DNA from: Zygnema cylindricum
Lineage: Eukaryota > Streptophyta > Zygnematophyceae > Zygnematales > Zygnemataceae
Assembly (NCBI GenBank): GCA_037447655.1
Contig: JBBHKE010000822.1
Location: forward strand, 314,272-378,271
Direction: 5' to 3'
DNA length: 64,000 nucleotides
The stretch's first letter is position 1, and the number at the start of each line of letters is the position of its first letter. The notes beneath the pieces were generated by a model that saw nothing but the letters and a program-made list of their open reading frames with translations, ran no database searches and was not told where the DNA came from. Shown here one piece after another: positions 3,722 to 60,207 of this stretch. Made by a program: the position numbers and the translations under genes.

Positions 3722-3734
3722 CTCCCCTTATTTT
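3722..3734 (-). promoter_or_regulatory. E2 polypurine tract
   Basis: The minus strand reads AAAATAAGGGGAG immediately before the 3' LTR TG. The same tract precedes the 3' LTRs of E4 and E14, and a variant ending AGGGGAG precedes those of E5 and E13. It is the expected plus-strand DNA priming site. Confidence 0.85.
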
Positions 3735-3735
3735 C

Positions 3736-29472: not shown

Positions 29473-32400
29473 CCCCCCCCTCTTAGTCAATCGTGACTAA
29501 TATATAAAATAATTATTCGCCCAATTCGCAGCTCCCGCAGAACTAGGTGATTGAGGGTTAAGGGCGTGGCTCCCAAGAGGCGGGAAGACATGATCGATGC
29601 CGACACTGGCTCTAGTGATCGCATACCAAAACGTTTCCCAGCTAGGAGGAAAAGAAGGAGAGTCGGCAAAGTAAGGTAAATGTAAAATGGATTCATCCTC
29701 CAATCCTCGAAGATGACTAAGGGCCACATTGATTTGATTCTCTTTAATTTTTCGGCCATCCTTCCCTTCCAAGGTAAGAACTCCCTTGTTAGAAACCTCT
29801 ACCACTTTCAAGATTACGCGCTAAACGGAAATATCCAGCGTGTCCTTCTTCAGTTGCATCCTATATACAAAGTCCCCAAGCATAAATCGCCGTTGACGTG
29901 GCACATTATTTTTGCTCTGGCGTTGAGCATACCACAGCTAATCGCGGTGTTGAGGCGCTTGTAAATTCCGCATGGCGAGAGGCATCTCTCAGTGGAATAC
30001 TTTAGCTCTGTTGGCGATTAGTTTTTTGACAATCCCCTGGTCATCCATTTCTATGAGGACTAGTGCTTTAGCCGAGGCAGCTCTGGGCAAGATGGGATGT
30101 CGTCCAAATAATATGAACTAAGGGCAATACAAATGGAGGGAAGCTTGTCGGCTAAACCTGTATACCATGGCAATTTAAGGCACCTTTTGTCCCACTCCCC
30201 TAAATCTTCTTCGAATATATATTTCCGTAGTGACCGCTTCATTCTCTGTACGCACCTTTCGGCCAAACTGTCGGCTTGTGCGAGGTCGCAACTGGTCACT
30301 CGATGGTCGATGAGGCATTTCTCCAAAAGGTTGGAAAATTCTTTGGCGAATTCGGAGCCTTGGTTGATCAGAACCTTTACTGGCCCCCCAAATTGTGACA
30401 ACACCCTCTGCAAAAAAGAATATGCAAATGAGGAGGACTCCTTTCGCGAAAACTATAAACTCTATCCATTTTGAAAAATGTTCGACCATGACCACGACAA
30501 AGCGATTCTCCCGTGTGCTGGTCGAAAGAGGCCCCAAAAGATCTAGAGACCATTGATAAAACATCCCTAGATGGGAAGAGAAAGAAGCTCGGTTCCGCCC
30601 TTTTTGTCAAAAGTCGTTTTAACTTAATCGCAGGAAGAGCAAGTGTGTAGAATTCGGTTGACTTAGGTCCCCAAATCGTGCCACCAATAAGATTTTCTGA
30701 CTAGAGATGTGGTCCGATTCTATCTGAAGTGTTTGCATTGCTAATGGAGACAGGTGATCAGAGTTTCTCGATCTGCAGGGGGGGGAACCACTTTTCTTCT
30801 GTTGTTTGCCCATTTTCGGAGGAGAATACCTCAGTCTCAATCATACGCCGCCATCCGGGTCTGCATGTTGGTTAATTGAACTCTAACCAGGTGGGAAAGA
30901 GGAGATCCATGCTGGATGGATTGTATGGAATTGGGGTCGTTCCTGATATCCTTCCGTTTGGCTCTTATTAGGGCAAACCCCTCCACGTCTAACGCAAAAG
31001 TGGACAATTCCCCCACAGATCACGGAAAAAAGATTAAAGCAGAAGAGGCTGGAATATGTCCCAGATTGATCTTCGCATCCTCATCGTGCCTCGCCTTGCT
31101 AGAATCCAAAATGGAGGGATCGGGATTTCGGCTAAGTTTGTCTACATTCCCGTGGATTTCCCCTGCCCGGTGGCTAATACTGAAATCGTATTCCTACAAG
31201 ATCAAAACCCATCTAGCGAGTTTGTTGTTTAACTTACTGTTCTCTATGATCCATTTGAGAGGTTGATGGTCCGTAATGAGAGGGAAACGGATCGCGTATA
31301 AATAGGGTCCAAAATATTGAATTGCCCAAACAGCTAGAATAAGCTCTCTTTGGTAACTGTTGTAATTCCCCTCCGCTTTGTATTACTTCGGCTAGCGTAA
31401 GCCACTACATACTCTTCCCCGGCGTCATCTATTTGAGCTAAAACTGCCCCCAATCCAAACATGCTCCAATCAGTGTAAATGAGGAAAGGTTTCTAGTGAT
31501 CAGGCATCCAACACACAGGGTGTTGTTTAAACGCATCCTTCAAGAATTGGAAGGCGATCAGTTGTTCTTCGGCCCACTGCCATTTTTGTTGCTCTTCGGC
31601 CCACCGCCATTCTTGGTCCTTCCGCAGTATTTGATTCAGAGGTTGGGCGTGACTCTTGAACTCGCGAATAAACCTCCAATAATAGTTAGCAACGCCAAGA
31701 AATGTGCGAAGGGCCGAAATGTCTTGAGGTGAAGGGAGAGCAACAAAGGCTACCACCTTGACCATATGGGGGGCCACTGTTTCGTGGTCACTTCATGTCC
31801 TAGGTAAAAACTTTTTTGAATACCAAAAATTCCTTTGCCCAGGTGACATTTCAAACCCGCTGCTTCGAGGGCCCAGAGGACAATCTGGACATGCTCCAAC
31901 TGTTCCTCAAAGGTCTTGGAGAAGATGATGACATCATCAATGTAGCACCGAGCGCAATCGATTTCTTGGAGAGCTTTGTCCATCGCCCGTTGGAATTTGG
32001 CCGGTGCATTCTTCAACCCGAATGGCATATAAATCCACTCATACAACTTGGAGCCTGCCCAAAATGTCGTTCTCTCCCGTTGTAACGGTTCCATGGCAAT
32101 TTGGTGAAACCCCATCATATCAAAGGTGGAGTAGATAGTGGCCCCAGCAAGAGAGTCGAAAATCTCTTCCGAGGTTGGAATCTGATACCGGTCAGAAATA
32201 GAAGCAGTGTTGAACATGCAATCCTCCCCACACCTCCGAAAATCTATTGTTTTTTCGGACGAATCCTTCTTGGGAGGAAGAACTGTCAAAGAAGCGAACC
32301 CATCGAGTCCGGTACTCTCCTAAACCAATCCGGCTTCCACTTAGGTTCGGACTTTGGCTGTGATAAACTCTTTTTCCTTAAAGCTGAGAGGATACTGCTT

Positions 32401-32806
32401 CTGCAAAACAGTTGGCGTCTCGTTGATCTAATCAATTCGGAAAGGAGTTCCCTTTTTAGATGCCGACATCCGTTTATGACCAAGAAAACAAATGTTTGTT
32501 TCTTGCTAATAATTCTGATAGCTAGGCCTTTTGCAATGGATCCAAATGTTCCCCCAGAGTCCAATCATTTTTCCATGGCTCAACAGCCGCCCATGCTTCC
32601 GTTGGTTTGCCCTAGCGACTGATGTCAAATTCCGATCCTACCTTTAGGTCTACTTTTACCCCTGTGGCTAGAACACTACTGCTGACAACTTCAGCTAAGT
32701 TGTCCTCTTGTGAGCGGCCTCTCCCCCCCACTACAGAAACCCTCCGGAGTGGAATGTGATTTTTTCTCCTTTTTCTCCCCAATTTAAGTTGCAAACTTGC
32801 TTGCAT
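29473..32806 (-). pseudogene. pol: E7 Ty3/gypsy RT-RNase H-integrase remnant
   Basis: Minus-strand gypsy pol, unlike E6 in sequence. From high to low coordinates: an N-terminal region with D-L-K-V-G-S-E-F-D-I-S-R (about 32630-32670). RT follows (31750-32289) with DRYQIPTSEEIFDSL, MPFGLKNAPAKFQRAMD and catalytic YIDDVIIFS. The RT connection is at 31493-31777, with FLGVANYYWRFI. RNase H lies near 31000-31300, with H-Q-P-L-K-W-I. The integrase core is at 30060-30600, with SLDLLGPLS, an altered second catalytic region NQGSEF (Asp to Asn) and LAERCVQRMKR. The integrase C-terminal domain is at 29497-29900 (VVEVSNKGVLTLEGKDGRKI). Stops and frame changes separate the parts. No LTRs were identified for it. 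Confidence 0.85.
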
Positions 32807-34937: not shown

Positions 34938-36003
34938 TGCAACTCTGAGACCTCCAAAGGACCTCAGAGTAAGCAGCTCATACGAAGCCTCTATGATAAC
35001 CCAAACCCCTTTGTCTTTGAGCACGAATAACCGCCACCCTGGAAAACAGAAACCTGTCCAACTTCACTCCTATGAAGGCAAGACTCCCTTGAGTCGATAG
35101 CAAAAAAAATCTCTGAATTTGCTCCTCTGAGCAGTAAGTTATGGAGGGTCAAAGTTGACCTTTTGTACGAAGCTCTCTTGGAGAGAGGGTCCTATCTACC
35201 AATTTTTCTAAGTCCTATCTCTCTCACAAACTCTATCTACTGATGTACGGAACCAATCATATTACACTTTCGTACATAAAATTACAGTTGTCGTTGTACT
35301 TTCTGTACAAAAACTGTACGACATGGCCTAAAAGTCGACACATGTCATATCCAAGTTCGGTCCCGTAATCCCCACGGATGACGCGATCCAACGTAATTTT
35401 GCCACGTGTCATCGGATGTGACGATGACCACAAACATACGAGATTCTCTTTCCCAATCTCGTCTTTCTTCTCGGCCGTCCAATTGAATGCAGATTTCAAT
35501 CGTAGCCGTCATAAATACTTGCGCGGTATTTGTTTCGTTAAAAAAATAAATGCGCGGTACTAGTTTCTTACACATACTGTAATCCGTACTTTTACATAAC
35601 AAGATCTATGTATCCCGTAAAAAGTTGCAGTTAAATGAATTATCCTACGTAATAATAATTAAATAAATATCAAACCATATATCATATATCATTAGTCTTA
35701 GACTTAACGGCTAAGACTACTAGCTACAGGCTACCTATCTTTTCGCAGGTATCAAGATCAAATCCCTGTTTCGACATCTGTCCTTTTAGTAAATAAACTA
35801 ATTATCGATATATAAACTAATCCATTTCCGGTAAACCTCTGGATAGCCAAGGTAGCCATGGCTCTAGCTTGTACTCCAACTTCTTAGTGACTGCGACAAG
35901 TGTGGGAGTTTGGAGAGAAAAGTTAGTGATAGACTGCCTCGGCTTCATTCTGTATTTTAATTTAGACCCAGAAAATACTTAAAAGGAACCATCAATTTCT
36001 ACA
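34938..36003 (-). repeat. E9 left LTR
   Basis: 1066 bp, plus-strand termini TGCAACTCTG and TTTCTACA. The polypurine tract follows at 36004-36016. It interrupts E8. It contains a weakened T-arm-like segment at 35747-35768. Confidence 0.9.
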
Positions 36004-39000
36004 CTCCCTTTATTTTCTAGTTAATCTTTAATTTTAGACCACACTTCTCTCGCAGAAAAAATTAGCTTAGGGGAAGGCACATGTTTGGTCATCATATCTG
36101 CTACCATCTCGCTATGTGGTCGGTACTCTAAACAGATTATTTTGTTTTCTACTTTCTCTCTAACAAAGCTGAGTCTAATGTCCATGTGTTTAGCTTTAAA
36201 ATGATGTTTAGGATTGGCGGAAATAGCGATTGCTGCCTGATTATCACAAAAAAAAATCTGCACACCACTCTTAAGGTGACCAAGCTCACCAAACAAAGAC
36301 TTAACCCACATCAATTCTTTTACAGCAGAGCAAGAGGCCATATACTCAGCCTCATTGGTGGACTGAGCAATAACCTTTTGCTGTTTGCTACTCCAACAGC
36401 AAGCCCTATCACCCACATATAATACATATCCTGAAGTACATCTCCTCATCGGAGCATCACCATAACTAGCATCACTCCTAGTGGTGATGTCAGTATTCTC
36501 CCCACCCAAATGCAACCATAGATCCCTAGTTCTTATCAAATATCTAAGGACTCTCTTAGCGGCCTCCCAATCCCTCTTACTGGGAGCATTTAGACTTCTA
36601 CTCAGCACTCCTACAGCTGTAGCTAAATTCGGCAGGGTATAATTCATAAAATAGATTTGACTTCCCACTATTTGCCTGTAAGGAATAGTCTGCATGAACT
36701 TTTGTTCTTCACGAGATAATTTCTCAACTAAGACTATGACTCTTTCTTCCTCACTCCCCTCATTTCCCTTCTTTAACTCCATTGGAGTTGTACAACTATT
36801 AGCTTTATCAATCTGAAATTTTTCAAGCATGTTCCCTATTGCTTCATTTTGAGTCAATCATATAATCTTTCTTTTTTAGTCTCTTTCTTCTTGAATTCCC
36901 AAAATATATTTTGCTTCCCCCGTATCCTTCATTTCAAATCTCCCCTTAAGATCGGTTTTCAGTTTATTAATTTTTTCCATTGATATATTTAAAACAAGCA
37001 AATCATCAACATAAATTCCAATAAATATAACACCTTCATAATCTTCAAAAACATAGATTGAGTGATCTGAGCTGATCTGGATATATCTTAGGTTGGTAAG
37101 AAACTCATTAAGCTTCTTATTCCACTGTCAAGGCGACTGTTTCAAATCATAAAGAGATTTAATCAGCCAACATACGTTACTCTCTTCTTCTTCCTCCACA
37201 AATCCTTCGGGTTGTCTCATGAAGATCTCCTCTTCCAATTCTCCATGCAAAAAGGTTGTCTTGATGTCCATCTGGTGCACCTCTATGTCTTCCGCTGCTG
37301 CTAGACTGAGAAGTATGCGGACGGAGGGAAATGTGACGACTGTGGCAAAGGTTTCCTCGTAGTCAATTCCCTCCTTTTGTGTAAATCCCTTTGCCAATAA
37401 TCGGACCTTAAAATGCTCAATTTTGTTATCTAGGTTCGGTTTTAATTTGAAAACCCACTTAAAACCGATTGGTTTTCGAATTAGGTGGACAATCCACTAG
37501 CTCCCCAGTATGAGCTACCATAATTGAGGCCATCTCCTCATTGATGGTTGTCTTCCACCGGTTTCTTTCAGGGCAAGTCTTCGCCTCTCCATAAGTTTGA
37601 GGTTCATCTTCATGAGATAGTTTTGTTACCTTGTTATTATCCTGTTTTTCTTGCAATATTTTGCTTCTTCTCCTTCCCCCCTCAAAATCTGTGGCCGAAA
37701 TAGATGGTTCTCGTGGATTCTTTCGAACAATCTCGGCTTCTCCCCTGTCCTTTGATTCCGAATCGGTTTCCACCACGTTTTCCGCTTCGGGTTGAGTTCT
37801 CACTGGAGTTTCCGGGGCCGAGATCTTTCCGGTCTAAATTGTACCTTCAAGAATGTCATCTTCTCCAAAACGTGGATAGTTAGGAAGTTCAAAGTCATCG
37901 GAATTTTCTGACTCAAATCTGATTTTTCCTGACTTTGTATACTTGAAGGGATCCACAGACTTTCTTTCATCCATAACTACTAGATGCTTTACTAAGATTA
38001 TATCTTCCCTTTTTAGATCATTAACTCTATATCCTTTAACATCCTCATCATATCCTAATAAGTATCTAGGTTTTCCTTTAGGATCTAGCTTCTAATTAGA
38101 CCGATCTGTATCTAGACTGAATACTTGACTGCCGAAAACCTTTAAGTGAGATATGTCTGGTTTCCGGCCTGTCTATCTCTCATAAGGTGTTTGATCTTTT
38201 ATAGCTGAAGTAAGAACTCTATTTTTGAGGTAATTAGCACAATTCATTGCTTCGGCCCAAAACCTTTTTCCTATCTTCTTATCCTACAAGATACTTTAGC
38301 ACAATCACTTAGTGTCCTATTTAATCTTTTAGCTACCCCATTCTGTTCCAGATTTTTTGGAATTGTCTTTTGGTGTTGAACTCTATCTTCCTTCAAAAAA
38401 TCCTCAAACTGGTTAGAAGTATACTCTCCACCATTGTCACTCCTTACTCTCTTGATTGGAGTTTCGCGGAGTTTTTCGCTCCATGCTTTATATTGTTTAA
38501 AACAATCCTGAGCTCCTAACTTGTTTTTCAAAAAATACACCCTGGAATACCGAGACTAATCATCAGTGATAGTCATCATAAATCTCTTCCCCCCGGGTTA
38601 GGGCACTTTGGCTGGTCCCCAAATATCTGTGTGTACTAGATCTAGAATTTTTTCTCCCCTATAGGTGGTTGTTTTGGGAAAGGGCAATTTGTGTGCTTTA
38701 CCTTAAGCACATCCACTATAATCATTTAGATTCTCACTCTCACTGAATTGAATTCTTTCCACCACTCCCATCTTTTTCATCTCTCTTAGCTTATCTAGAT
38801 TCACATGCCCAAGCCTCTTATGCCACTTCAATATATCATGAACACCAGCGTAATAAAGTTTCTTCGTTTCATTAGTTAAAATCAGCCTAAACATCCCTTG
38901 GCTACCTTTTTCAGTGGTGAAATAAACTTTCTCCTCAAAACTAGAAGTAAAGACTCCTTTCCTAGTGCTAGTATCAAAACCCTTATCATCTAATACAGTC

Positions 39001-39848
39001 GTAGAGATGAGGTTTTTGTTCAGCTCCGGAATGAACAATACATCAAAGAATGTTACTATGGATGTCTTTTCTTCTATCAATACTTTCATATCTACCGATC
39101 CTTCAAGAGTAGTGGTGACTATCCTCCCATCCCCGTATTCTATCTCTACGGTGGGAATCTTTCTTATCTTAGTGAACAGGTGTTTATCCTTACACATGTG
39201 TATGGAGGCACCTGAATCTACAATCTTGCCTGCTTCACCTTTCAATCCACCGAAAGCATATTTTTGCTTTCGTGGAATTTCTACCTCGTTTGTCGCTTCC
39301 AACTCCTCATCCAATAGGAGCTCATCGTCCTCATCTTCGGATTCCACCTCATGTACCTGTGTCACAGGAGCCTTTTTCTTTCCTCTCAGGGTTCCTCCGG
39401 TCTGCCCCTCCTTTAACCGAAGCTCGGTTAGCTTAGTGCACTCTGCCATATAGTGCCTTTGTTTCTTACAGAAATGACATAAACCCTTTGGAGCCCTTGG
39501 TCCGAACTCATCGGTCTGATTTTTTTTCTCCCCCCCTCCGTAATTTCTGATCGGTCTCCAGGAATCCTTGTTCCTCCAATCGGTCCCAGCTGCCAAGGCT
39601 TGCCCACTCTTTCCTCCCCCTCAAGTCTCAATTGTATTCTCCCGAACGAGAATCATTCGTACCATTGAATTTCATATCCACCTTGAGTCCGCCAAGTCCT
39701 ACACACGGTTGACTATTATCTCGAACTCATCGGGTAACTTCATCAGTAGACAGTTAACCTTTTATTTTTCACTAAAATCTTTTCCACCACTCTTTAGCTC
39801 AATGAAAAGTGTAGCAAGCTCATTACAAAAATCCAACATCTTCCCCCA
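36004..39848 (-). pseudogene. gag-pol: E9 left element: pol, protease and C-half of gag
   Basis: Minus strand. RNase H and RT C-part are at 36021-36857 (CDNQAA, HMDIRL). RT continues through about 37060 (YVDD region near 36995) to 37397. The linker is at 37459-37803. Integrase is at 38200-38690, with RSDNGGEY and LEQNGVAKRLNRT. An open segment at 38703-39596 holds the knuckle (CHFCKKQRHYMAEC), protease (VDSGASIHMC) and WHKRLGHVNL. Gag then continues to 39848 (MLDFCNELATLFIEL), where it is cut inside the sequence that normally follows Y-K-G-G. Stops and at least one frame change (the linker is in another frame) make it non-coding as a whole. Confidence 0.87.
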
Positions 39849-41498
39849 ACATCCACTACAATCACTTATATTATCATTCTCACTGAACTTAATCCCTTCC
39901 ACCACTCCTATCTTTTTCATCTCTCTTAACTTGTCTAGATTCACATGCCCAAGCCTCTTATGCCACATCATAATATCATGAACACCAGCATAATAAAGGT
40001 TTTTTTTATTTCATTACGTGAAACCAGGCTAAATATCCCATGGCTACCTTTCTCAGCAATGAAATAGACATCCTCTTCAAAACTAGCAGTAAAGACTCCT
40101 TCCCTAGTGCTAGTAAAAAAACCTTTATCATCTAATACGGATGTAGAGATGAGGTTTTTGTTCAGCTCCGGAATAAACAATACATCGGAGAATGTTACTA
40201 TGGATGTCTTTCCTTCTATTAACACTTTCAGATCTACCGATCCTACAAGAGTAGTGGTGATTATCCTCCTATCCCTGTACTCTATCTTTACGGTGGGAAT
40301 CATTCTTGTCTTAGTGAACAGGTGCCTATCCTTACACATGTGCATCGAGGCACCTGAATCTACAATCCAGCCTGCTTCACCTTTGAATCCACCGTAAGCA
40401 CATTTCTGCCTTCGTGGTATTTCGACCTTGATTTTCCCCTCCAACTCCTCATCCAAAAGGAGCTCATCGTCCTCGTCCTCGGATTCCGCCTCATGTACCT
40501 GTGTCACAAAGGCCTTTTTCTTTCCTCTCGTGGTACCACCGGTCTGCCCCTCTTTTAACTGAAGCTCGGTTAGCTTAGTGCACTCTGCCATATAATGCCC
40601 AGGTTTCTTACAAAAATGACATAAACCTTTGGGAACCCTTGGTCCAAACTCGTCGGTTTGATTTTTCTGCTCCCTCCCCCCATAGTTTCCGACCGGTTTC
40701 CGTGTATCCTTGTTCCTCCAATCGGTCGCAGTTGCCAAGGCTAGGCCACTTTTTCCTCCCATTCGGATCTTAATTGTATTCTCCTGAACAAGAATCATCC
40801 CTACCACTGAGTTCCATATCCACCTTGAGTCCGGCAAGTCCTGCACAGGGTTGACTATGTTCTCGAACTCATCGGGTAACTTCATCAGTAAACAGTTAAC
40901 CTTTTCTTTTTCACTAAAATCTTTTCCCGCACTCTCTAGCTCCATGAAGAGTATAGCAAGCTCATTGCAAAAATCCAACATCCCTCCCCCTTTGTATACA
41001 TACTCATTCACTTTCTGATCAGCCAACTGTTGTTGCTGAATCGTACAACTTCGCTACATCTCTATGAGAGCCATCCAAAGATCGGATGCCCTTTCTACCT
41101 GCAAATGAGGACATGCAAGTCCTTGAGTGAGATGGCGTAGGATGAAGTGCTTTGCCGCCATATTTTTGAAGTCCCAGGTTTAAGTATCATTCTCCTCGTT
41201 CCTCGGAATAGGTGACATGAATGCCAAACCAGTTGCTATTGGTGTGGTCACCTACTTCTCCTTTCCTTTGTCCACCACTTCTCCTTCCTTTGTTTCCTCC
41301 ATTAAAGGTGGATCCTCTTTCCGCGTGAATTTGCTTCTTCCAAACCCTGGAGGGATTCCAAGACTTGAGTGACGCCCCAACCGTCCACTCACTATCCCCC
41401 AAAACCTTTTTTCGCATAGAGCTCCTATCATCATACTTTCCTAGTATATGAAGCCTGTTCCATTAAAGATTGATACCCTAAAGGGTGGGCCCATAACC
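39849..41498 (-). pseudogene. gag-pol: E9 right element: gag, protease and GAG_pre-integrase
   Basis: Minus strand. Gag N-part is at about 41180-41498. The ATG seen in E2 is AGG here, so the start is lost. An open segment at 39968-41026 holds gag, knuckle CHFCKKPGHYMAEC, protease WIVDSGASMHMC and the following DVLFIPELNKNL. WHKRLGHVNLDKL and CSGC follow in another frame (39850-39971) and stop at the junction with the left element. It duplicates regions already present at 38703-39848. Confidence 0.87.
41484..41498 (-). promoter_or_regulatory. E9 right primer-binding site
   Basis: Element strand GGTTATGGGCCCACC, perfect in 15 bases, next to the LTR end TTACA. Confidence 0.83.
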
Positions 41499-42537
41499 TG
41501 TAACTCTGAGACCTCCCTAAGTCCTCAGAGTGGACAGCTTCCAAGAAGCCTCTAGGATAACTCTGACCCCTTTGTGTTTCAGCAAAAACAACTGCCACCC
41601 TGGCAGACAAAAACTCTGAACACTTGGCCCCTTGTGAAGGGAAGACTCCCCTAAGTCGATAGCAAAAAAAATCTCTGAATTTTCTCCCTTGAGCAGTAAG
41701 TTATGGAGGGTCAAATTTGACCTTTTGTACAGAAGCTCTCTGGGAGAGAGGGTCCTTTCTCCTAATTTTTTTAAGTCCTATCTCTCTCACAAACTATATC
41801 TACTCATCTACAAAACCAATCAGATTACAGTTCCGTACGCAAAAGTACAGCTGCCAGTGTACTTTATGTACGGATATTGTACGACATGGCCTAAATGTCG
41901 ACACATGTCATATCCGAATTCGGTGCCATAATCTCCAGAGATACCACGATCCAATGTAATTTCGCCACGTGTCATGCGATGTGGCGATGGCCACAAACCG
42001 CCGAAATCTTCTTCCGCGATCTCGGCGCTAATTACAGCCGTCCGATTAAATTTGATTTTAATCTTAGCCGTAATAAATACATGCGCGGTATTCCTTTCAC
42101 TAAAGAAATAAATGTGCGGTATTGATTTCTTGTCTATACCGTAATCCGTACACTTATACATTATCGGATCTATGTATCCCGTAAACAATTACAACTAAAA
42201 GATTTATACTATGTATTCATGTTTAAATAAATATCAAACCATATACTACGTAACATTAAGGCTACCGACTAACTGCTGTCTGCTGGCCGGTAGGTACCAG
42301 GATCAAATCCTGTGGCCGGCACATACCCTTTTAGTAAATAAACCCCTAACTAATATAAATTTCCTGTAAACCTCTGGATAGCCTAGGTAGCCATGGCTCT
42401 AGCTCCCTCTCCAATTTCTCAGTGACTGCGACAAGTTTGAGAGTTGGAGAAAGAAGTTAGAGGTAGACTGCCTCGGCTTCTTTCTATATTTCTATTTAGA
42501 CCTAGAAAATACTTAAAATGGACCATTAATTTCTACA
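41499..42537 (-). repeat. E9 right LTR
   Basis: 1039 bp, plus-strand termini TGTAACTCTG and TTTCTACA. T-arm-like segment at 42292-42313 and U3 hairpin near 42400-42465. Directly followed by the E10 protease coding sequence. Confidence 0.9.
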
Positions 42538-43247
42538 AATGGGGTTGCCCGGCATTACCTCTAATGGACACAGGCGCGAAACCGATTATCCTTGGGTCAG
42601 ATATTGCAATCAGAATAGGTCTGGCGTCAGAAAAATTACAACCTACAACCACACGCCTGTTGACTTCTGCAGGCACCACAGAACCGGTCCTCGGAATTAC
42701 AAAAAAACCAGTTTGTTTCCAGTTCCAGAGTCATTCGGAGACGGATTTCGCGAAGATATGTGCTTATGCCTTGGTCACAAAGTGTGGTGATTATGAGCCC
42801 CGTTGGCAAGAAATGATTTTTCCGCGTAGGGTTGATATGCATGATCAAACATTTTCTTACAGACCGAACAACTTTCCGGAGCGCAAAATATGCTTACCTC
42901 TCATATCGGCTCGGCAACCCATGCCTACTACGGCTCATTCTGCGCTGACTTTACACGCTTATGCCGCAATTGGCATAGGGGCGGATATATTTAAATCTTT
43001 AACAGCGGAAGTAATCTCGTTAGATCCTCCGAGAATACCAGAATTATTTAGCGCACCTGGATTTACTATTAATTCTTTAGATTTTGACCGACTTTATAAG
43101 TTCACTAAAGCAGTTCCTTTATCGCGCATCCCAGATCCACCCTCCATTACGATGGATCCGTCCGGGTTCTTGCCCATTAATTGGAAACCTATCAGTTTGC
43201 AACCTCACCAAAACGGTCTCGTTATCTTAGACCTTTTTGCGAAATAG
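42538..43247 (+). pseudogene. E10 retropepsin-like region and first DNMT motif
   Basis: Open from the left edge. The ORF formally starts inside the E9 LTR, but true sequence begins at 42538. A retroviral-type aspartic protease motif, P-L-M-D-T-G-A-K-P-I-I-L-G (42564-42602), is truncated on its N-side by E9. About 130 residues of connecting sequence follow, including a YRPNN segment. The segment ends with G-L-V-I-L-D-L-F-A-K (43216-43245), which matches the start of motif I of C5 cytosine methyltransferases, and then a TAG. The rest of motif I continues in another frame, so one base has been lost or gained near 43243. DTGA followed by this spacing is typical of Ty3/gypsy proteases. Confidence 0.8.
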
Positions 43248-44230
43248 GAACTTCACTTCTCTCTTCTCTTCGGAACGCTCTTCTTATAAAGCATTACTAT
43301 TCCGTTGATTTTGACCCCTTGGCTAGACGCGCCCAATTACACCACTCTCAAATCTTGCACGAACAATATCCTCACCTCTTACCACAGTCCACTTTTAATG
43401 ACATGCATTCGGCTTTACCACAGGATATCCGTCTAATAGGAAACCACCATTTGTTGGAATTGGAACCGATAGATCTTCTCTTCGCCGGATGGGAATGTCA
43501 AGGGATGTCTTGGGCCGGAAAAGGTTTAGGTCTCGCAGATCCGCGTACTAAGTTGTTCTTCGAGGTGGTGCGCCTTATCCATTTCTTCCAAACACTGAAC
43601 CGTCTTTTTGGGTACATTTTAGAAAATATCGCAGCTTATAATGATCCCCGACCCACGGTCCTCGCAGATTACAGACGCATTGAATCACTGATTGGACCAC
43701 TATTAATTATCGATGTCGCATGCCACGGTTCGCTGGCTCACAGGGTTCATTCCAAGTGGACTAACCTGGTAGACATGGGTCGGCTCCAAAAAGCTAACCT
43801 TGTTTTCCGTCCACCTAATCGTTCCATTCAGGATGCACTACTCCCATTTCATAAAGTCAAAACCAGCATTCAGACAAACTATCCTCCTGCTTTCTGTCTC
43901 AACATTCCTAGCCAACCACTACGTGCACTTCCTACACTAGTCTCATATCCACATTCTCACGCATATTCACACAACGGACCAGGCACGCTTCAAAATACTC
44001 ATACAGGCAGCTTAGAAGAACCCACTGCTGCAGAACGAGAACACCTCTTACATTTTATCTTGGGCACCACTGCCGCTCCGGGACTCACCGAGCGGCAGCG
44101 CTGTACCTTACTCGGTCGGGTCATGGATCCCCAGTCACTTTCATTTGTCTTGGGAATGGGATTTACAGCTGGTCGATACTCACAGAACAATCCGTCTCAA
44201 TCAGCTGGGGGGGGGGCATACACCATTTAA
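43210..44230 (+). pseudogene. DNMT3-like C5 cytosine DNA methyltransferase in a Ty3/gypsy element
   Basis: C5-MTases transfer a methyl group from SAM to cytosine. After the frame change near 43243 the frame is open to TAA 44228-44230. Motif I: D-L-F-A then I-G-T-S-L-L. Motif II: YYSVDFDP (43298-43321). Motif IV: FAGWECQGMSWAGKG (43482-43526), with the catalytic Cys present but Glu in place of the usual Pro before it. Motif VI: LENIAAYN (ENV-type). Motif VIII: IDVACHGSLAHRVHSKWTNL, close to the A-A-H-R-A-R-Y-F-W-G-N-L pattern of animal DNMT3. A short target-recognition part has P-T-L-V-S and NGPG. Motif IX/X-like: EREHLLHF, then LTERQRCTLLGRVMDPQSL. It lies between retropepsin and integrase, so it belonged to the element's pol. 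The subfamily call is inferred by eye. Confidence 0.82.
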
Positions 44231-44801
44231 ACATACGACATCTAAGCCCTTACCCTCTCTCCGGGGTACAACTTTTCAGCTCTCTCTCTTTCCTCCGTCT
44301 GCTAAGTCTGATACAGCGCACACTATTTATGATTTTTTGGTTCCCAGTCACATGAGTTGGTCGCTCCCAGCATACACGTTTGAAGTTGTATACGCATACC
44401 AACCGAGAGAAGCATTAGACTTAATAACACGGGTCACTAAAAAGAATAGGGGTCTTGGAACAGAATTTTGGGAATACATTCAAATGGTTTGGAAAACAGT
44501 CCGAGATGCATTGGTGGAGGCACAAAGAAGGCAAGAACTAAATGCTAACCGCAAACAGGGTAATAGGGTGGTAAGCACAGGTGACAAGAATTGGCTTTTA
44601 ACAACTCATTACAGATGCAAGATTGAGGCACAATGGGATCCTATGGGGAAATTTTCTCCTAAGTACATCGGACCATTTACTGTTATCGAGATGATATCAT
44701 CAGCTGCTATCAAATTGGACTTTGCGCCTTCAACAAAAAATAATCCAGTGATACACATCAGCCAGTTGAAACCAGCAAATCTTCGACCAACTGAAGGATA
44801 A
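44231..44801 (+). pseudogene. pol: E10 integrase C-terminal part
   Basis: Enters from another frame after a run of ten G (44207-44216), which probably gained or lost a base. From about 44375 the sequence is Ty3/gypsy integrase tail: YTFEVVYAYQPREALDL, GTEFWEYIQMVWKTVRDALVEAQRRQ, then a GPF/Y-type module KFSPKYIGPFTVIE and VIHISQLKP, ending at TAA 44799-44801. RT, RNase H and the integrase zinc finger and catalytic core, about 2.5 kb in intact gypsy elements, are missing between the methyltransferase and this tail. There is therefore an internal deletion with its joint near 44350-44375. Confidence 0.8.
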
Positions 44802-45057
44802 TTAGAATTGGACCCCTCAAGAATTATAGAACTTGAGGTTCACATATGGGTAATAGATTTGGTTGGTCAACGGTTTAAGGTCGGCAATATTATATATTAT
44901 GGCAAGTGCATTATCTAGGAAGGCTAGAACATGAGTTAACTTTAGAAGATAAAAAATTTTGAGTTTTTACAAAGGAATTGGAGGGATAATAATATAGAAG
45001 TCCCGTCTTGAGAAAGAAATGTGTTTTAACTGAGGTCGGTTAAATATAAGAAAGGGA
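44802..45057 (+). other. E10 3' region, possible chromodomain relic
   Basis: Downstream of the integrase, one can read D-P-S-R-I-I-E-L-E-V and later, in another frame, LEHELTLEDKKF. This is reminiscent of the chromodomain tail of chromoviruses but too broken to call. A purine-rich AAGAAAGGGA (45048-45057) could be the polypurine tract. Confidence 0.35.
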
Positions 45058-45566
45058 TGATCTAACACTAATAGTGGATCGAACTTGTTCGTTAATAAGT
45101 ATTTATGTGTTAAGAAAATATGAATTTGATAGACGTCCGCGAAAGAATCGCACGATTTGGGGTTGTATTTTAAAAGATATAGTGATTGGTGTATTAAGGC
45201 GACAGCACGATGTCAAAATAACGATTGGGTGTTCATTGTTACGGTTTAAGGGTTAGACTATCCGCGGAATTTAAGACGTACGTTTATAAAGTAATAAATG
45301 AAATGAAAATTTCTTTCGGTACGCATGATGGTTCGTTTCGTACAATTTTTAGCACGAAACGTCACTTTCAGTTTATGGAATTTCGTAGGAAGTTTCGCGT
45401 GCGAAATTTGCGACGCACGTTCGTGCAAAGTCGCGTTTTGTTTGGCGCGCACTTTTGCACGTAAATGTTACGTAGTGAAACGTAGCGTTTGATTGGTAAG
45501 AAATGCTACGTAGTTAGTAAGAGATTTCACACATTTTTGCATTGGTCAGTCTGAGTCCTAGCTGAT
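45058..45566 (+). repeat. Candidate E10 3' LTR
   Basis: Begins TGATC after a purine tract. GATCA at 45562-45566 would be the matching inverted end. The stretch contains the CpG-dense tract 45241-45510. No second copy is present in the window, so the assignment is unproven. Confidence 0.3.
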
Positions 45567-46210
45567 CAATGATTAGCCCGAGTAAAACCTGTTCAACGGA
45601 GCGTTGACTCTGGCTTGGCGAGTCTAGGGCGATGATAGATAAATAGTGAAGTCTAAGAGAAGAGTAGACATCTTTTCCTTTCGAAAAGTTGGTGGAAATT
45701 CTGACTGATCTTGGTCTTGAGCGATTAAAACCAAATTGAACCATTGGCATTTTGGCACTGAAATCTCCTGCAAACTAAGTATTGTTTTAGTAGTTAAGAG
45801 ATATAATTATTAAGAGTGGAGAGTAGTGGAAAACGCTTTAAAAAGAAAGGTTGAGCCACGAGGGCAAGAGACCAAGCAAATGTTATGTGGACAAAAGCTT
45901 CTTATAATTTAAAGTTTATCCTTAAGTGAGTGTTTTCCAATGTGGATGTGTATTTTTCCAATGTGTGGAATATGTGGTTGAAATTGGTTGTAATAATGAG
46001 ATTTTCTAAGAGGTAGGAGATCCTATTGCAGCAAATGTCAAGTTAAACTTGTTTTGATTATAAATTTATATATTTGACCTTAGTTTGTCATTATATTGTT
46101 TTTCATTTATCTTTCCATAAAAAAAAATCATTTCGGTATAAACCTTGTTTATTAATCATGGTTAGTAATTATATGATATTTTCTTATTGATTTTTTTGTT
46201 TTCTTCCCCA
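45567..46210. other. Unrecognised spacer upstream of the hAT remnant
   Basis: AT-rich, with no domain-bearing ORF. Bases 46190-46212 (TTTTTTTGTTTTCTTCCCCAG and following) look like a polypyrimidine tract with a 3' splice acceptor just before hAT coding similarity begins. The spacer may therefore include an intron or the 5' part of the hAT element. Confidence 0.4.
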
Positions 46211-47770
46211 GGTTTTCAAGCTTTTTGTCAAACATTAGTTGATGTTGGTGTTTCGTCCATCAAAAGTGTCAACATCAACCAACTACTCCCGTCCATCAAT
46301 GGTGTAAAAAACTACATTATATCTTATGCGAAAGATTGATCATCCCAAAACTTAGAGAAAATATTGATAACAATTTTTTTGTCGCATTCACGACCGATCT
46401 CTGGAACGAGACAATAAAAGAACCTCATTAAGTCAGTAACCGCTCATTTTATTGGCAAAAAATTTAAACTTCATGCACGGACGCTTCAAGTCGATCATTT
46501 TCCGGAGGAAAAACACAATGCGGAAATTTTTTTAATGGTTTTCAAAAAGTGTTTGACAAATTTCGAAATGTCCAATTTTGATCGCTGCGTTGTCGTGACT
46601 GATAGTGGCTCTAACATGTGTGCGATTAAAGGTCTACCGAGTATGTTTACTTGGATACCTTGCGCGGACCATAAAATTGCAACAATTGTGACAACGGTCT
46701 TGAATAAAAGCGGAACTTCCAAAAAAGGCAAATACGGTGTGGAAGTTCCTAATTTTTTTGATCTTATTGACGCGTGTAAATCATTGGTCAAGTTTTTCAA
46801 ATAGAGTAATTTACAAAATCTTTTGAAAAACACTTTAAAAGAAGAAAACGCAACGCGGTGGAATTCTTTGCTCCGAATGCTTAAGAGTATTTACAATGCA
46901 TTCAATGAGATAGGACCAATCGCTCAAGCAAAAAATTAATTGATATTTTTTGCTTGTATCGATAAGACCCTTCTTATCGAACTTATACGATTTTTAGAAA
47001 GGTTTCAAGAAGCGACCCTAAAGTTGGAAAAAATCAAATAACCAACTTTACATTTGATTTTGTTTGAACTATCGTCTCCCCATAACCATTGTAAGATAAG
47101 AAAAGCATCTTACAATGATGGTGAAAAGAAATGCCCCGCCGATTACACAAACTTGCAAAAATTAAAACAACTTTTTGGGAAATTTGCACTACTAAAGTGG
47201 GGCCTTCATGAGTATCATATTGTCGCGGCTCTCTTAGATCCCCGACAAAATCAAAAGCTTGAAATTATTGGGGTATTGTAAACCGAAATTGAAAGCTTAA
47301 AGGTAAAACTTTGAGAACTTGCAAACGACCTCAGTGATGACGTTGATTTTGGTAGTCCCCAACGTATCACAAAAAAATGAAAAACATCGCAAAGTAAAGA
47401 CGATTTCCACAATTTTTTTGGTGAGAGCGATGACAAAAAAAAGGTTCTTATTACCACCGACAAGAAAATGCTCGTTAACGACGAAATGAAACGTTATTTT
47501 GATTTAAAATTAACCAACGACGAAAGATTGAACTTTAACATACTTGAATGGTGGAAAAAAAAATCAAATGTACGTGCGAAAGATGGAGGATTTCCTATTC
47601 TAGCCGGTGTTGCTAGATCTATTCTAGCTATTACGGCTTCTAGCTCCATGTTCGAATGCAATTTTTCGGATGCCGGGAATATGATAACAAAAAAGAGGAG
47701 CTCACTAGTTGCTTCGATTGTTAATGATCTTTTGTGTGTTAGATCTAACCGAGATCTTTTACATGCATAG
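46211..47770 (+). pseudogene. hAT-family transposase pseudogene (E11)
   Basis: Plus strand, mostly in one frame. hAT transposases cut and paste DNA transposons. Visible parts: F-T-T-D-L-W (near 46395, in a shifted frame); an RNase-H-like segment VVVTDSGSNMCAIKG (46589-46633), with the conserved Asp and Asn; P-C-A-D-H-K-I (46659-46679); and ATRWNSLLRMLK (near 46850-46886). The C-terminal dimerisation region at 47540-47760 has L-E-W-W, F-P-I-L-A-G-V-A-R-S-I-L-A-I and SSSMFECNFSDAGN, ending KKRSSLVASIVNDLLCVRSN. Stops interrupt it near 46804, 46938, 47040 and 47281. The BED zinc finger and N-terminus are not found. Terminal inverted repeats were not located. Confidence 0.85.
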
Positions 47771-48936: not shown

Positions 48937-49746
48937 NNNNNNNNNNNNNNNNNNNNNNNNNNNNNNNNNNNNNNNNNNNNNNNNNNNNNNNNNNNNNNNN
49001 NNNNNNNNNNNNNNNNNNNNNNNNNNNNNNNNNNNNNNNNNNNNNNNNNNNNNNNNNNNNNNNNNNNNNNNNNNNNNNNNNNNNNNNNNNNNNNNNNNNN
49101 NNNNNNNNNNNNNNNNNNNNNNNNNNNNNNNNNNNNNNNNNNNNNNNNNNNNNNNNNNNNNNNNNNNNNNNNNNNNNNNNNNNNNNNNNNNNNNNNNNNN
49201 NNNNNNNNNNNNNNNNNNNNNNNNNNNNNNNNNNNNNNNNNNNNNNNNNNNNNNNNNNNNNNNNNNNNNNNNNNNNNNNNNNNNNNNNNNNNNNNNNNNN
49301 NNNNNNNNNNNNNNNNNNNNNNNNNNNNNNNNNNNNNNNNNNNNNNNNNNNNNNNNNNNNNNNNNNNNNNNNNNNNNNNNNNNNNNNNNNNNNNNNNNNN
49401 NNNNNNNNNNNNNNNNNNNNNNNNNNNNNNNNNNNNNNNNNNNNNNNNNNNNNNNNNNNNNNNNNNNNNNNNNNNNNNNNNNNNNNNNNNNNNNNNNNNN
49501 NNNNNNNNNNNNNNNNNNNNNNNNNNNNNNNNNNNNNNNNNNNNNNNNNNNNNNNNNNNNNNNNNNNNNNNNNNNNNNNNNNNNNNNNNNNNNNNNNNNN
49601 NNNNNNNNNNNNNNNNNNNNNNNNNNNNNNNNNNNNNNNNNNNNNNNNNNNNNNNNNNNNNNNNNNNNNNNNNNNNNNNNNNNNNNNNNNNNNNNNNNNN
49701 NNNNNNNNNNNNNNNNNNNNNNNNNNNNNNNNNNNNNNNNNNNNNN
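48937..49746. other. Assembly gap (810 N)
   Basis: Unsequenced. Left of it is AT-rich unique-looking DNA; right of it is copia pol sequence. At least one element boundary is therefore hidden in the gap. ORFs that appear to span it have no meaning. Confidence 1.
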
Positions 49747-54744: not shown

Positions 54745-55810
54745 TGAAACTCTAAGACCTCCATAAGTCCTCAGAGTGGACAGCTTCTAAGAAGCCTCTA
54801 GGATAACCCTGACCCCTTTATGTTTCAGCAAGAACAACTGCCACCCTAGCAGACAAAAACTCTGACCAACTTCACCCCTGTGAAGGCAAGACTCCCCTGA
54901 GTCAATAGCAAAAAGAATCTCTGAATTTTCTCCCCTGAGCAGTAAGTTATGGAGGGTCAAAGTTGACCTTTTGTACAGAAGCTCTCTGGGAGAGAGGGTC
55001 CTATCTCCTAATTTTTCTAAGTCCTATCTCTCTCACAAACTCTATCTACTAATGTACGGAGCCAATCAGAGTACACTTCCGTACAAAAAAGTACAGCTGC
55101 CGGTGTACTTTCTGTACGGATATTGTACGACATGGCCTAAATGTCGACACATGTCATATCCGGATTCAGTGCAATAATCTCCAGGGATACCACGATCCAA
55201 TGTAATTTCGCCACGTGTCATCCGATGTGGTGATGACCACAAACCGCTGTAATTCTCTTCCACGATCTCGGCGTTAATTCGGCGTCAGATTAAATTCACA
55301 TTAAATCATAGCCGTGATAAATACATGCGCGATATTTGTTTTGCTAAAGAAATAAATTTGCGGTATTCGTTTCTTATCCGTACTGTAATCCGTACTTTTA
55401 CATTACTCGATCGATGTCTCCCGTAAAACTGTTTCAGTTAAATGAACTATTCTACGTATTAATGTTTAAGTAATTATCAAACCCTATAATACGTAACACT
55501 ATGTCTAGACTTAACGGTTAAGGCTACCGGCTACCGACAGCTTACCATCCGGCAGGTACCAAGATCAAATCCTGGGGTAAACACATACTCTTTTAGTAAA
55601 TAACCCAACGGTAAATAAACTAATATATATATTTCCCGTAAACCACTGGATAGCTTAGGTAGCCATGGCTCTAGCTTCCTCTCCAATTTCTCAGTGACTG
55701 CGACAAGTTTGAGAGTGGGAGAGAGAAGTTAGAGATAGGCTGCCTCGGTATCTTTCTATATTTCTATTTAGACCTAGAAAATACTTAAAAACGGACCATT
55801 AATTTCTACA
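54745..55810 (-). repeat. E14 3' LTR
   Basis: 1066 bp, TGAAACTC...TTTCTACA on the plus strand, followed by the polypurine tract at 55811-55823. T-arm-like segment at 55554-55575. Confidence 0.94.
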
Positions 55811-55823
55811 CTCCCCTTATTTT
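55811..55823 (-). promoter_or_regulatory. E14 polypurine tract
   Basis: AAAATAAGGGGAG on the element strand, between the pol stop (TAG in ATTGACTAG) and the 3' LTR. Confidence 0.85.
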
Positions 55824-57894
55824 CTAGTCAATCTTTAATTTCAGACCACATTTCTCCCTACAGAAAATTAGCTTACGGGGAGGCACACGTTTGGTCATCA
55901 TATCTAATACCATCTCGGTATCTGGTCGATACTCTAAACTGATTATTTTGTTATCTACTTTCTCTCTAACAAAGCATAGTCTAATGTCCATGTGTTTGAC
56001 TTTAAAATGATGTTTAGGATTGGCAGAAATAGTGATTGCTGCCTGATTATCACAAAATATTTTCTGCACACCTGTCTTAAGGTGACCAAGCTCACCTAGC
56101 AAAGACTTGACCCACATCAATTCTTTTACAACAGAGCAAGAGGCCATATACTCAGCCTCCATGGTGGACTGAGCAATAACTTTTTGTTGTTTGCTTCTCC
56201 AACAGCAAGCCCCATCACCCACATATAATACATATGTAGAAGTGCATCTTCTCATCGGAGCATCATCATAACTAACATCACTCCAAATAGTGATGCCAGT
56301 ATTCTCCCCACCCAAATGCAACCATAGATCTCCCCACCCAAATGCAACCATAGATCCCTAGTTTCTATCAAAAATCTAAAGACTCTCTTAGCTGCCTCCC
56401 AATCCCTCTTAGTGGGAGCATTTAGACTTCTACTCAACACTCGTACAGCTGCAGCTAAATCCGGCCGGGTACAATTCATAAAATAGATTAGACTTCCCAC
56501 TACTTGCCTGTAAAGAATAGTCTGCATGAACTTATGTTCTTTAGGAGATAATCCCTCGTCTAAGACTATGACTCCATCTTCCTCACTCCCCTCACTTCCC
56601 TTCTTCAACTCCATTGGAGTTGTACAACTATTAACTTTATCCATCTGAAATTTTTCAAGCATGTTCCTTATTGCTTCCTTTTGAGTCAATCTTATAATCT
56701 TTCTTTTTTGGTCTCTTTGTATTTGAATTCCCAAAATATATTTTGCTTCCCCCATATCCTACATTTCAAATCTCCCCTTAAGATCGGTTTTCAGTTTATT
56801 AATTTTTTCCATTGATTTACTTAAAACAAGCAAATCATCAACATAAATTGCAATAAATATAAAACCTTCCTCATTTTCGAAAACATAAATTGAGTGGTCT
56901 GAGCAGATACGGATATATCCCAGACCGGGAAGAAACTCATCAAGTTTTTATTCCACTGTCGAGGGGCCTGTTTCAAACCATAAAGATATTTAATCAGCCG
57001 GCGTACCTTACTCTCCTCTCCTTCCTCCACAAATCCTTCGCGTTGTCGCATGAAGATCTCCTCTTCCAATTCTCCATGCAAAAAGGCTATCTTGATGTCC
57101 ATTTGGTGCACTTCCATGTTTTTCGCTGCTTCCAGACTGAAAAGTATGCGGACGGAGGGAAATTTGACGACCGAGGCAAAGGTTTCCTCGTAGTCAATTC
57201 CCTCCTTTTGTGTAAATCCCTTTGCCACTAATTGGGCCTTCTAACGCTCGATTGTGTTATCTGGATTCAGTTTTAATTTGAAAACCCACTTACAACCGAT
57301 TGGTTTTCGGTTAGGTGGACAATCCACCAGCTCCCAAGTATCGGCTGCCATAATTGAGGCCATCTCCTCATTGATGGTTGTCTTCCATCGGTTTCTTTCG
57401 GGACAAGTCATCGCCTCTCCATAAGTTTGAGTTTCATCTTAATGAGATAGTTTTGTTACCTTGTTATTAACCTGTTTTTCTTGCAATCTTTTGCTACTTC
57501 TCCTTCCTACCTCAAAATCCGAGGCTGGAATAGATGGTTCTCGTGGATTCTTTCGAACAATCTCGGCTTCTCCTTTATCCCTTGATTCCGAATCACTTTC
57601 CACCACGTCTTCCGCTTCGGGTAGAGTTGTCACTAGAGTTTCCGCAGCCGAGTCTTTTTCGGTCTGATTTGTACCTGGAAAAATATCATCTTTTCTAAAA
57701 CCTGGATAGTTAGGAAGCTCAAAGTCATCGGAATTTTCTGACTCAAATCTGATTTTTACTAACTTTGTATACTTGAAGGGATCCACAGACTATCCTTCAT
57801 CCATAACTACTAGATGCTTTACTAAGATTATATCTTCCATTTGTAGATGATAAACTCTATATCCTTTAACATCCTCATCATATCCTAATAAGTA
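55824..57894 (-). pseudogene. pol: E14 integrase tail, linker, RT and RNase H
   Basis: Continues the frame below the stop at 57895. The acidic linker (57439-57786) and RT N-part (to about 56950) stay in frame. A base is lost near 56945, and the catalytic YVDD part and FEMKD region lie in the new frame. RT C-part is at 56252-56755. A 26-bp tandem duplication at 56304-56355 then shifts the frame again before RNase H (55824-56351: CDNQAAITISANP, then HMDIRLCFVREKV). The natural stop TAG is retained just before the polypurine tract. Confidence 0.88.
56304..56355. repeat. 26-bp tandem duplication in E14 RNase H
   Basis: Unit CTCCCCACCCAAATGCAACC plus ATAGAT, at 56304-56329 and 56330-56355. E2 and E9 have one copy of the segment at this position. 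It causes a frameshift. Confidence 0.88.
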
Positions 57895-60207
57895 TCAGGG
57901 TTTTCCTTTAGGATCTAGCTTCCAATTAGATCGATCTGTATCTAGAATGAATACTTGACTACCGAAAACCTTTAAGTGAGATATGTCTGGTTTCCGGCCT
58001 GTCCATCTCTCATAAGGTGTTTGATCTTTTATAGCTGAAGTAAGAACTCTATTTTTGAGGTAATTAGCACAGTTCATTGCTTCTGCCCAAAACCTTTTTC
58101 CTATCTTTTTATCTGACAACATACTTCTAGCACTATCACTTAGTGTTCTATTTAACCTTTCAGCTACCCCATTCTGTTCCGGGTTTTCTGGAACTGTCTT
58201 TTGGTGTTGGACTCCATCTTCCCTCAAAAAATCCTCAAACTGGTTAGAAGTATACTCCCCATCATTGTCACTCCTTACTCTCTTGATTGGAGTTTCATGT
58301 AGTTTTTCACTCCATGCTTTATATTGTCTAAAAGAATCATGAGCTTCTAACTTGTTTTTCCAAAAAAACACCCGGGAATACCGAGACCAATCATCAGTGA
58401 TAGTCATCATAAATCTCTTCCCCCACGGTGAGGGCAGTTTAGCCGGTCCCCAAATATTTGTGTGTACTAGATCTATAATATTTTCTCCCTTATAGGTGGC
58501 TGTTTTAGGAAAGGGTAATATGTGTGCTTTACCTTGAGCAACTCCACTACAATCACTTATGTTATCACTCTCATTGAACTTAATCCCTTCCACCACTCCC
58601 ATCTTTTTCATCTCTCTTAACTTATCTAGATTCACATGCCTAAGCCTCTTATGCCACATCATAATATCATGAACACCAGCATAATAAAGTTTCTTCGTTT
58701 CATTACTTAAAATCAGCCTAAACATCCCATGGCTACCTTTCTCAACAATGAAATAGACATCCTCCTCAAAACTAGCAGTAAAGACTCCTTCCCTAGTGCT
58801 AGTAAAAAAACCCTTATCATCTAATACAGATGTAGAGATGAGGTTTTTGTTCAGCTCCGGAATAAACAATACATCGGAGAATGTTACTATGGATGTCTTT
58901 CCTTCTACTAACACTTTCACATCTACCGATCGTACGAGAGTAGTGGTGACTATCCTCCCATCCTCGTATTCTATCTCTACGGTGGGAATCTTTCTTATCT
59001 TAGTGAACAGGTGCCTATCCTTACACATGTGCATGAAGGCACCTGAATCTATAATCCAGCTTGCTTCACCTTTGAATCCACAGTAAGCACATTTCTGCCT
59101 TCGTGGAATTTTGACCTCGTTATTCGCCTCCAACTCCTCATCCAAAAGGAGCTCATCGTCCTCGTTCTCGGATTCTGCCTCATGAACCTGTGTCATAAGG
59201 GCCTTTTTCTTTCTTCTCGTGGTACCACCGGTCTGCCCCTCCTTTAACCGAAGCTCGGTTAGCTTAGTGCACTCTCCCATATAGTGCCCCGGTTTCTTAC
59301 AAAAATGACATAAACCTTTGGGAGCTCTTAGTCCGAACTCGTCGACCTGATTTTTCTGCTCCCTTCCCCCATAGCTTCCGACCGGTTTCCGAGAATCCTT
59401 GTTCCTCCAATAGGTCGAAGTTGCCAAGGCTTGGCCACTCTTTCCTCCCCTTCGGAACTCAATCGTATTCTCCCGAACGAGAATCATCCCTACCACTGAG
59501 TTCCATATCCACCTTGAGTCTGGTAAAACCTGCACACGGTTGACTATGTTCTCGAACTCATCGGGTAACTTCATCAGTAAACAGTTAACCTTTTCTTTTT
59601 CCCTAAAATGTTTTCCTGCACTCTCTTGCTCCATGAAGAGTGTAGCAAGCTCATTGCAAAAATCCAACATTTTCCCCACTTTGTATACATATTCTTTAAC
59701 TTTCAAATCAGCCAACTCTGGTTGCTGAATCGTACCACTTCGGTACATCTCTATGAGAGCCATCCACAGATCAGATGCCCTTTCTACCTGCAAATGAAGA
59801 CATGTAAGTCCTTGAGTAAGATGGCGTACGATAAAGTGCTTTGCCGCCATATTGTTGAAATCCCAGGTTTGAGTATCATTCTCCTCGTTCCTCCGAATAG
59901 GTGACATGAATGCTAAACCGGTTGCTATTAGTGTGGTCGTCTCCTTCTCTACTTCTTTTTCCACCACCTCTCCTTCCTTTATCTCCTCCGTTGAATATGG
60001 ACCTCCTTTCTTTGTGAATCTGCTTCCTTCAAACCCTGGAGGAATTCCAAGACTTGATGGACGCCCTAATCAACCACTCACTATCCCCCAAAACCTTTTT
60101 TCGCATAGAGCTCCTATCATCATACTTTCCCAGTATATAAAGCTAGTTCCATTAAAGATTAGTACCTTAGAGGGAGGGCGCATAACCTGAAACTTTAAGA
60201 CCTCCAT
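57895..60207 (-). pseudogene. gag-pol: E14 gag-protease-integrase polyprotein
   Basis: ATG 60207-60205 lies inside the 5' LTR. One in-frame TGA at codon 46 (60070-60072) interrupts it, then it is open to TGA 57895-57897. The reading that begins at 59967 uses GTG and is not the real start. Contents: gag; knuckle CHFCKKPGHYMGEC (near 59270-59315); protease WIIDSGAFMHMC (near 59030); WHKRLRHVNL; a CSGVA where relatives have CSGCA (a zinc Cys lost); integrase HTNIWGP (first catalytic Asp changed to Asn); RSDNDGEY; and PENPEQNGVAERLNRT. The protein is long but carries active-site damage. Confidence 0.9.
60173..60187 (-). promoter_or_regulatory. E14 primer-binding site
   Basis: Element strand GGTTATGCGCCCTCC, two differences from the E2 site, abutting the LTR. 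Confidence 0.75.

Follow-up and report, generated by a model that had tools for sequence, protein, structure and literature searches.

A Ty3/gypsy-type retrotransposon family with a DNMT3-type methyltransferase and a PHD finger in its polyprotein in the alga Zygnema cylindricum

Retrotransposons carrying a C5-cytosine methyltransferase (DNMT) of their own are already known from a charophyte alga and from dinoflagellates (de Mendoza et al., 2018; PMC5890265), as the first-pass annotation of the DNA considered here had noted. Among these, KnitGypsy-Dnmt3 of Klebsormidium nitens is described as holding an unrearranged Dnmt3 domain in a gypsy pol frame, as combining gypsy domains with DIRS-type repeats in the order A-coding-B-A-B (Fig. 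4 legend), and as having a DNMT under purifying selection with Ka/Ks < 0.2 (PMC5890265). A further account mentions some DNMT3 members embedded in streptophyte and dinoflagellate retrotransposons, naming the families Copia and DIRS (PMC12344493) where the former source says Gypsy. Here, we analyse a window of 64,000 nucleotides from Zygnema cylindricum (contig JBBHKE010000822.1), in which positions 42538-44378 of the forward strand are, judged from their sequence, an internal piece of a Ty3/gypsy-type retrotransposon that is present in many copies and bears a DNMT3-type domain; the piece is dead and carries two frame shifts. The kind of element is already known; the Zygnema family adds to it a copy in which the full architecture is open, along with a PHD reader, an active-site loop with a fixed change, and traces of recent mobility.

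A search of the 352.8-Mb genome assembly (2689 contigs) with the DNMT returned at least 117 matches, a lower bound because 116 of the 1848 first-look candidates were scored. Ten copies were fetched at length; the DNMT lies directly upstream of the reverse transcriptase (RT) in all ten, and a PHD finger is present in all except C1112. The first-pass annotation had implied an active relative elsewhere and had proposed looking in the same genome for the order protease-DNMT-RT-integrase; the genome does hold that order, and open frames of up to 2395 residues, the longest being that of C1344, which reads gag-protease-DNMT3-RT-RNase H-integrase-PHD without interruption. Its DNMT (E 2.8e-12) and PHD finger (E 2.1e-10) are recognised together with the pol domains RVT, RNase H, H2C2, and rve (the DDE integrase), in the protease-RT-RNase H-integrase order by which Ty3/gypsy elements are defined and with the DNMT placed between protease and RT; the CCHC knuckle (E 0.00078) falls slightly below the cut-off, and the protease (PF13650, E 0.0027) is also below its curated one. 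Pfam scans of four pieces of this polyprotein, at E up to 0.1, gave no phage-integrase (tyrosine recombinase) domain and listed no DUF3444, ADD, or PWWP. We regard this identity and architecture of the family as close to certain.

Compared by description, the Zygnema family agrees with KnitGypsy-Dnmt3 in its Dnmt3-type methyltransferase within the pol frame, its gypsy domain set with split repeats, and its purifying selection. It may differ in its C-terminal PHD finger, a domain unmentioned in the main text of PMC5890265, and in the Glu-Cys form of its motif IV. The dinoflagellate elements SymbioDIRS-Dnmt3 and SymbioLINE-Dnmt likewise encode the DNMT in a retrotransposon polyprotein, and split repeats and two orders of domains are described for the former (PMC5890265); however, they are respectively a DIRS element with a tyrosine recombinase and a LINE, whereas the Zygnema element has a DDE integrase. 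Plant DNMT3 host genes share the unrearranged DNMT3 methyltransferase domain but have a C-terminal DUF3444 (PMC6453930), while the Zygnema domain sits inside a polyprotein whose scanned pieces hold none. In the literature searched, which left most subscription papers and all preprints outside, we found no gypsy element described as having both a DNMT and a PHD finger.

The repeats could be delimited in six of the ten long copies (the others being C1407, C1112, C783, and C605), and all six have the split arrangement A-coding-B-A-B. The paired A and B repeats are respectively 100% (931 bp) and 99.6% (243 bp) identical in C1344, 99.5% and 99.5% in C1915, 99.1% and 99.0% in C2573, 96.3% and 100% in C2602, 96.6% (620 bp) and 96.8% in C232, and 80.3% and 95.7% in C449. 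The outer ends of the element are TGTC and GACA, and all six have GACA-GC-TGTC at the internal B1-A2 junction. Exact 4-bp target duplications flank C1344, C2602, and C1915; the flanks of C2573 and C449 match at three of four bases, and C232 is without a clear 5' end. Since identical A repeats occur together with 4-bp target duplications, transposition appears to have been recent, and the family has evidently been mobile of late. The plain long terminal repeats (LTRs) expected of Ty3/gypsy elements are not what we see, given the extra B that precedes the right-hand A; of the features that define DIRS elements, the split direct repeats are present, but a tyrosine recombinase in place of the DDE integrase is not. 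For DIRS elements, copying across the internal repeat junction has been proposed. The split repeats of the Zygnema element suggest that it, too, is copied in this DIRS-like way, over its internal B-A junction, and then inserted at its TG/CA ends by ordinary DDE integration.

The window copy is an 1841-bp piece of this element, matched over its full length by L009 (83.6%) and L025 (88.7%). It aligns nearly end to end with the open frame of C1344 in three reading segments, which agrees with the two frame changes noted at first pass. The first segment (42546-43241, +) holds the protease remnant and linker, at 80% identity to the C1344 polyprotein; the DTGA protease claimed there aligns, but its profile match (PF13650, E 0.022) is weak and below the curated cut-off. 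The second (43235-44215, +; 88% identity) is the methyltransferase domain, and the third (44208-44378, +; 81% identity) the DNMT-RT linker, which ends at a junction. At its left limit (42538) the DNMT element is cut by the outer edge of a copia LTR (41499-42537, −), and the element itself does not terminate there. On the right, similarity to the DNMT element ends at 44377/44378. What follows (44377-46030, +) is the tail of another gypsy element, consisting of an integrase C-terminus, open to 44801, and a 3' flank. This DNA matches a site outside the intact DNMT copy (L010:3702-5357) at 87% over 1663 bp, and its Tf2-type SH3 module (PF24626, E 2.4e-11) differs from the PHD finger in which the DNMT element's own integrase ends. 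The integrase tail thus belongs to another element, as the junction and the outside match require, and its assignment to the DNMT element at first pass had to be given up. Therefore, reading the stretch as one protease-DNMT-integrase unit joins what are, by all appearances, parts of two elements in a chimera; a DNMT within pol between protease and integrase holds for the family, as the single frame of C1344 attests, but is not displayed by the window copy.

The claim that this stretch encodes a DNMT3-like C5-methyltransferase stood up to a profile search of the region: the frame 43181-44230 matches PF00145 (E 5.3e-9), and its best solved-structure match is DNMT3A (E 5.4e-6). Both profile and predicted fold place the domain in the DNMT3 class, and the C5-methyltransferase motifs are in unrearranged order, although the Pro-Cys of motif IV that is usual in DNMT3 is absent. 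An origin from DRM was rejected on profile comparison (31-34.5 bits for DRM against 65-77 bits for DNMT3), as was one from CMT or MET1/DNMT1, with no DNMT1- or CMT-named chain among the 58 listed; the structure-match lists are also without DRM or DNMT1 rows, which in itself excludes nothing. Across 75 DNMT copies, the catalytic Cys is retained in 70, the motif Glu (ENV/ENI) in 72, and the His (AHR) in 72. The median ratio of nonsynonymous to synonymous substitution rates (dN/dS) is 0.118 over the 61 usable pairs of 171 (the other 110 were dropped as saturated, too close, or too short), and 0.311 over the 24 closest pairs (dS 0.05-0.2). The DNMT is evidently under purifying selection, and we consider it probable that the domain is catalytically active.

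A database search for proteins with both DNMT and RT found, among the best 120 of 351 matches, fused proteins in Closterium and other ENA/JGI sources, many of them partial, such that a missing DNMT or PHD finger is not evidence of loss. The DNMT precedes the RT in P0031, P0032, P0033, P0037, P0079, and the Closterium rows, and follows RNase H in P0039, P0043, and P0044, a second domain order within the same RT branch. P0037 and P0043 combine DNMT, pol, and PHD, and P0031 joins them if a partial DNMT, matched by the family query only, is counted. The Closterium DNMT-gypsy proteins (P0002, P0005-P0018, P0040, P0073, and others) resemble the Zygnema family in having the DNMT before the RT and, in most rows, Glu-Cys; however, they are only ~29-35% identical to it over the DNMT, and no PHD finger was found in these often partial proteins. 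A tree of 76 RT rows, built by a quick method with midpoint rooting and with SH-aLRT as its only support measure (after removal of ids above P0115 and of rows with fewer than 331 aligned residues), has a 51-row branch with support of 100 that holds the DNMT- or PHD-tagged rows, those of Closterium, two from the liverwort Calypogeia fissa, and P0066 of K. nitens, a partial sequence in which no DNMT was seen. A DNMT-profile recheck of 36 relatives, mostly DNMT-less by the earlier search, added matches in the pol protein P0069 (Closterium) and in the distant, DNMT-bearing P0030; there was none in the rows from Klebsormidium and Calypogeia, which are partial or start near the RT. In a DNMT tree of 26 rows (those under 280 residues dropped), the three rows with the DNMT after RNase H group together (97/96), with long branches that warn against firm claims. 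The presence of the methyltransferase at two places in pol within one RT branch suggests more than one event of capture or relocation.

What, then, might such an element do with a methyltransferase? The best solved matches of the PHD finger include PHF12, KDM5-type Lid, BAZ2B, WSTF, PHF21A, and ATXR5. Binding of histone H3 unmodified at K4 is a property of several of these PHD fingers and also of the DNMT3 ADD domain, and by analogy the element's finger may share this preference. We envisage that the DNMT would enter the particle, or the pre-integration complex, together with the integrase and act de novo on the new cDNA or on chromatin at the landing site, methylating chiefly CG sites, as is typical of DNMT3; the PHD finger, through its reading of the H3 tail, would direct the complex. 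Fresh insertions would thus arrive silent and tolerated. Self-methylation of this kind is plausible, and that methylation of its own cDNA or target site is the DNMT's main role is something we would put at slightly short of an even chance. For the locus, the family, and this proposed role taken as one explanation, we lean modestly in favour. More doubtful is the fullest version, in which a recently mobile element would carry a DNMT3 writer (with its Glu-Cys loop) and a PHD reader on its integration machinery, set methylation on its own cDNA or at its landing site, be copied across DIRS-like split repeats and integrate through its DDE enzyme, and have had its writer captured or moved more than once within a single streptophyte-spanning, liverwort-reaching RT branch.

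Several observations weigh against self-methylation by an active enzyme. The canonical Pro-Cys of motif IV is replaced by Glu-Cys, with Glu in 73 of the 75 copies; 57 retain the Arg of motif VIII and 59 the Gln that follows the Cys, decayed copies included; and just 19 copies are stop-free. The KnitGypsy-Dnmt3 domain produced no methylation in yeast, a result its authors term inconclusive (PMC5890265). Of these, the substituted loop and the yeast result would also favour a DNMT retained for a non-catalytic or altered job, such as nucleic-acid binding, a scaffold for cDNA or integrase, or a decoy for host silencing; Glu-Cys recurs in P0001, P0020, P0032, P0039, and most Closterium rows, other relatives having Pro-Cys. 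Yet the catalytic Cys, Glu, and His are all retained and the fold is predicted to be that of DNMT3, and a purely structural domain would hardly be expected to keep them; this alternative strikes us as unlikely, if still worth bearing in mind. The traces left in the copies also fit the self-writer poorly. Of the 75 copies, 28 share at least 84% identity with C1344; in these, C-to-T change relative to C1344 is 0.112 at CG, 0.111 at CHG, and 0.058 at CHH, against 0.062, 0.042, and 0.048 in the reverse comparison. The excess at CHG matches that at CG and hence fits host enzymes rather than a CG-only self-writer; it points to copies formerly methylated at both contexts, a pattern that host enzymes would explain. 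An equal CG and CHG excess is in its own right a plant-type methylation trace. A decay of CpG with increasing number of stops was also looked for, and no fall in CpG observed/expected was seen across the copies.

Another possibility is that the DNMT chiefly alters the host methylome, its many copies acting as an extra de novo methylase with any effects on the element itself being secondary. The copy number and the constraint on the domain would permit this, and the C-to-T excess at CG is in keeping with it; against it stand the equal excess at CHG, the land-plant-like methylome reported for K. nitens despite KnitGypsy-Dnmt3 (PMC5890265, section 9), and the consideration that selection on transposons favours what aids their own spread, and we hold it to be improbable. 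Finally, the window copy taken alone, with parts of other elements on both sides, would fit a host gene or pseudogene lying next to unrelated transposon pieces, and the first-pass annotation had itself named an independent host gene with a gypsy insertion as the finding that would overturn it. For the family this is contradicted by the number of genomic matches, by the linkage of DNMT to RT in every long copy and their joint enclosure in the C1344 frame, and by the fused DNMT-pol proteins elsewhere, leaving the host-gene explanation scarcely credible.

Much of the rest of the window is filled by three related copia elements with similar LTRs on the reverse strand (2673-9122, 34938-42537, and 54745-61253), and further copies of the LTR that cuts the DNMT element are present. 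That LTR and its partner (34938-36003) are just 79% identical when aligned, and a target duplication was looked for around the pair and not seen; the middle copia element may hence be a recombinant. A second gypsy fragment (29701-32436, −) has 40-58% identity to the DNMT element in the RT and 35-36% in the integrase, and gave no match to DNMT and PHD queries. By inspection, with no search made, frames at 46418-47770 (+) resemble a hAT-type transposase, and a run of N at 48937-49746 is a possible assembly gap. In the genome at large, five PHY-domain matches and the reading of two of these exons, which resemble plant phytochromes, make a streptophyte host probable, although the domain is also found in bacteria and one control matched as well; the exons do not establish the 'land-plant-like' character named at first pass. 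A MatK search matched neither this genome nor any of the control genomes, and so carries no weight.

These observations indicate that gypsy elements with a DNMT3 of their own are not confined to Klebsormidium, and that a family of this kind can reach high copy number, be under constraint, and have moved recently. They also indicate that a single transposon polyprotein can bear both a methylation writer and a PHD reader. In a genome such as that of Zygnema, the near-identical recent insertions make self-marking by transposons directly testable.
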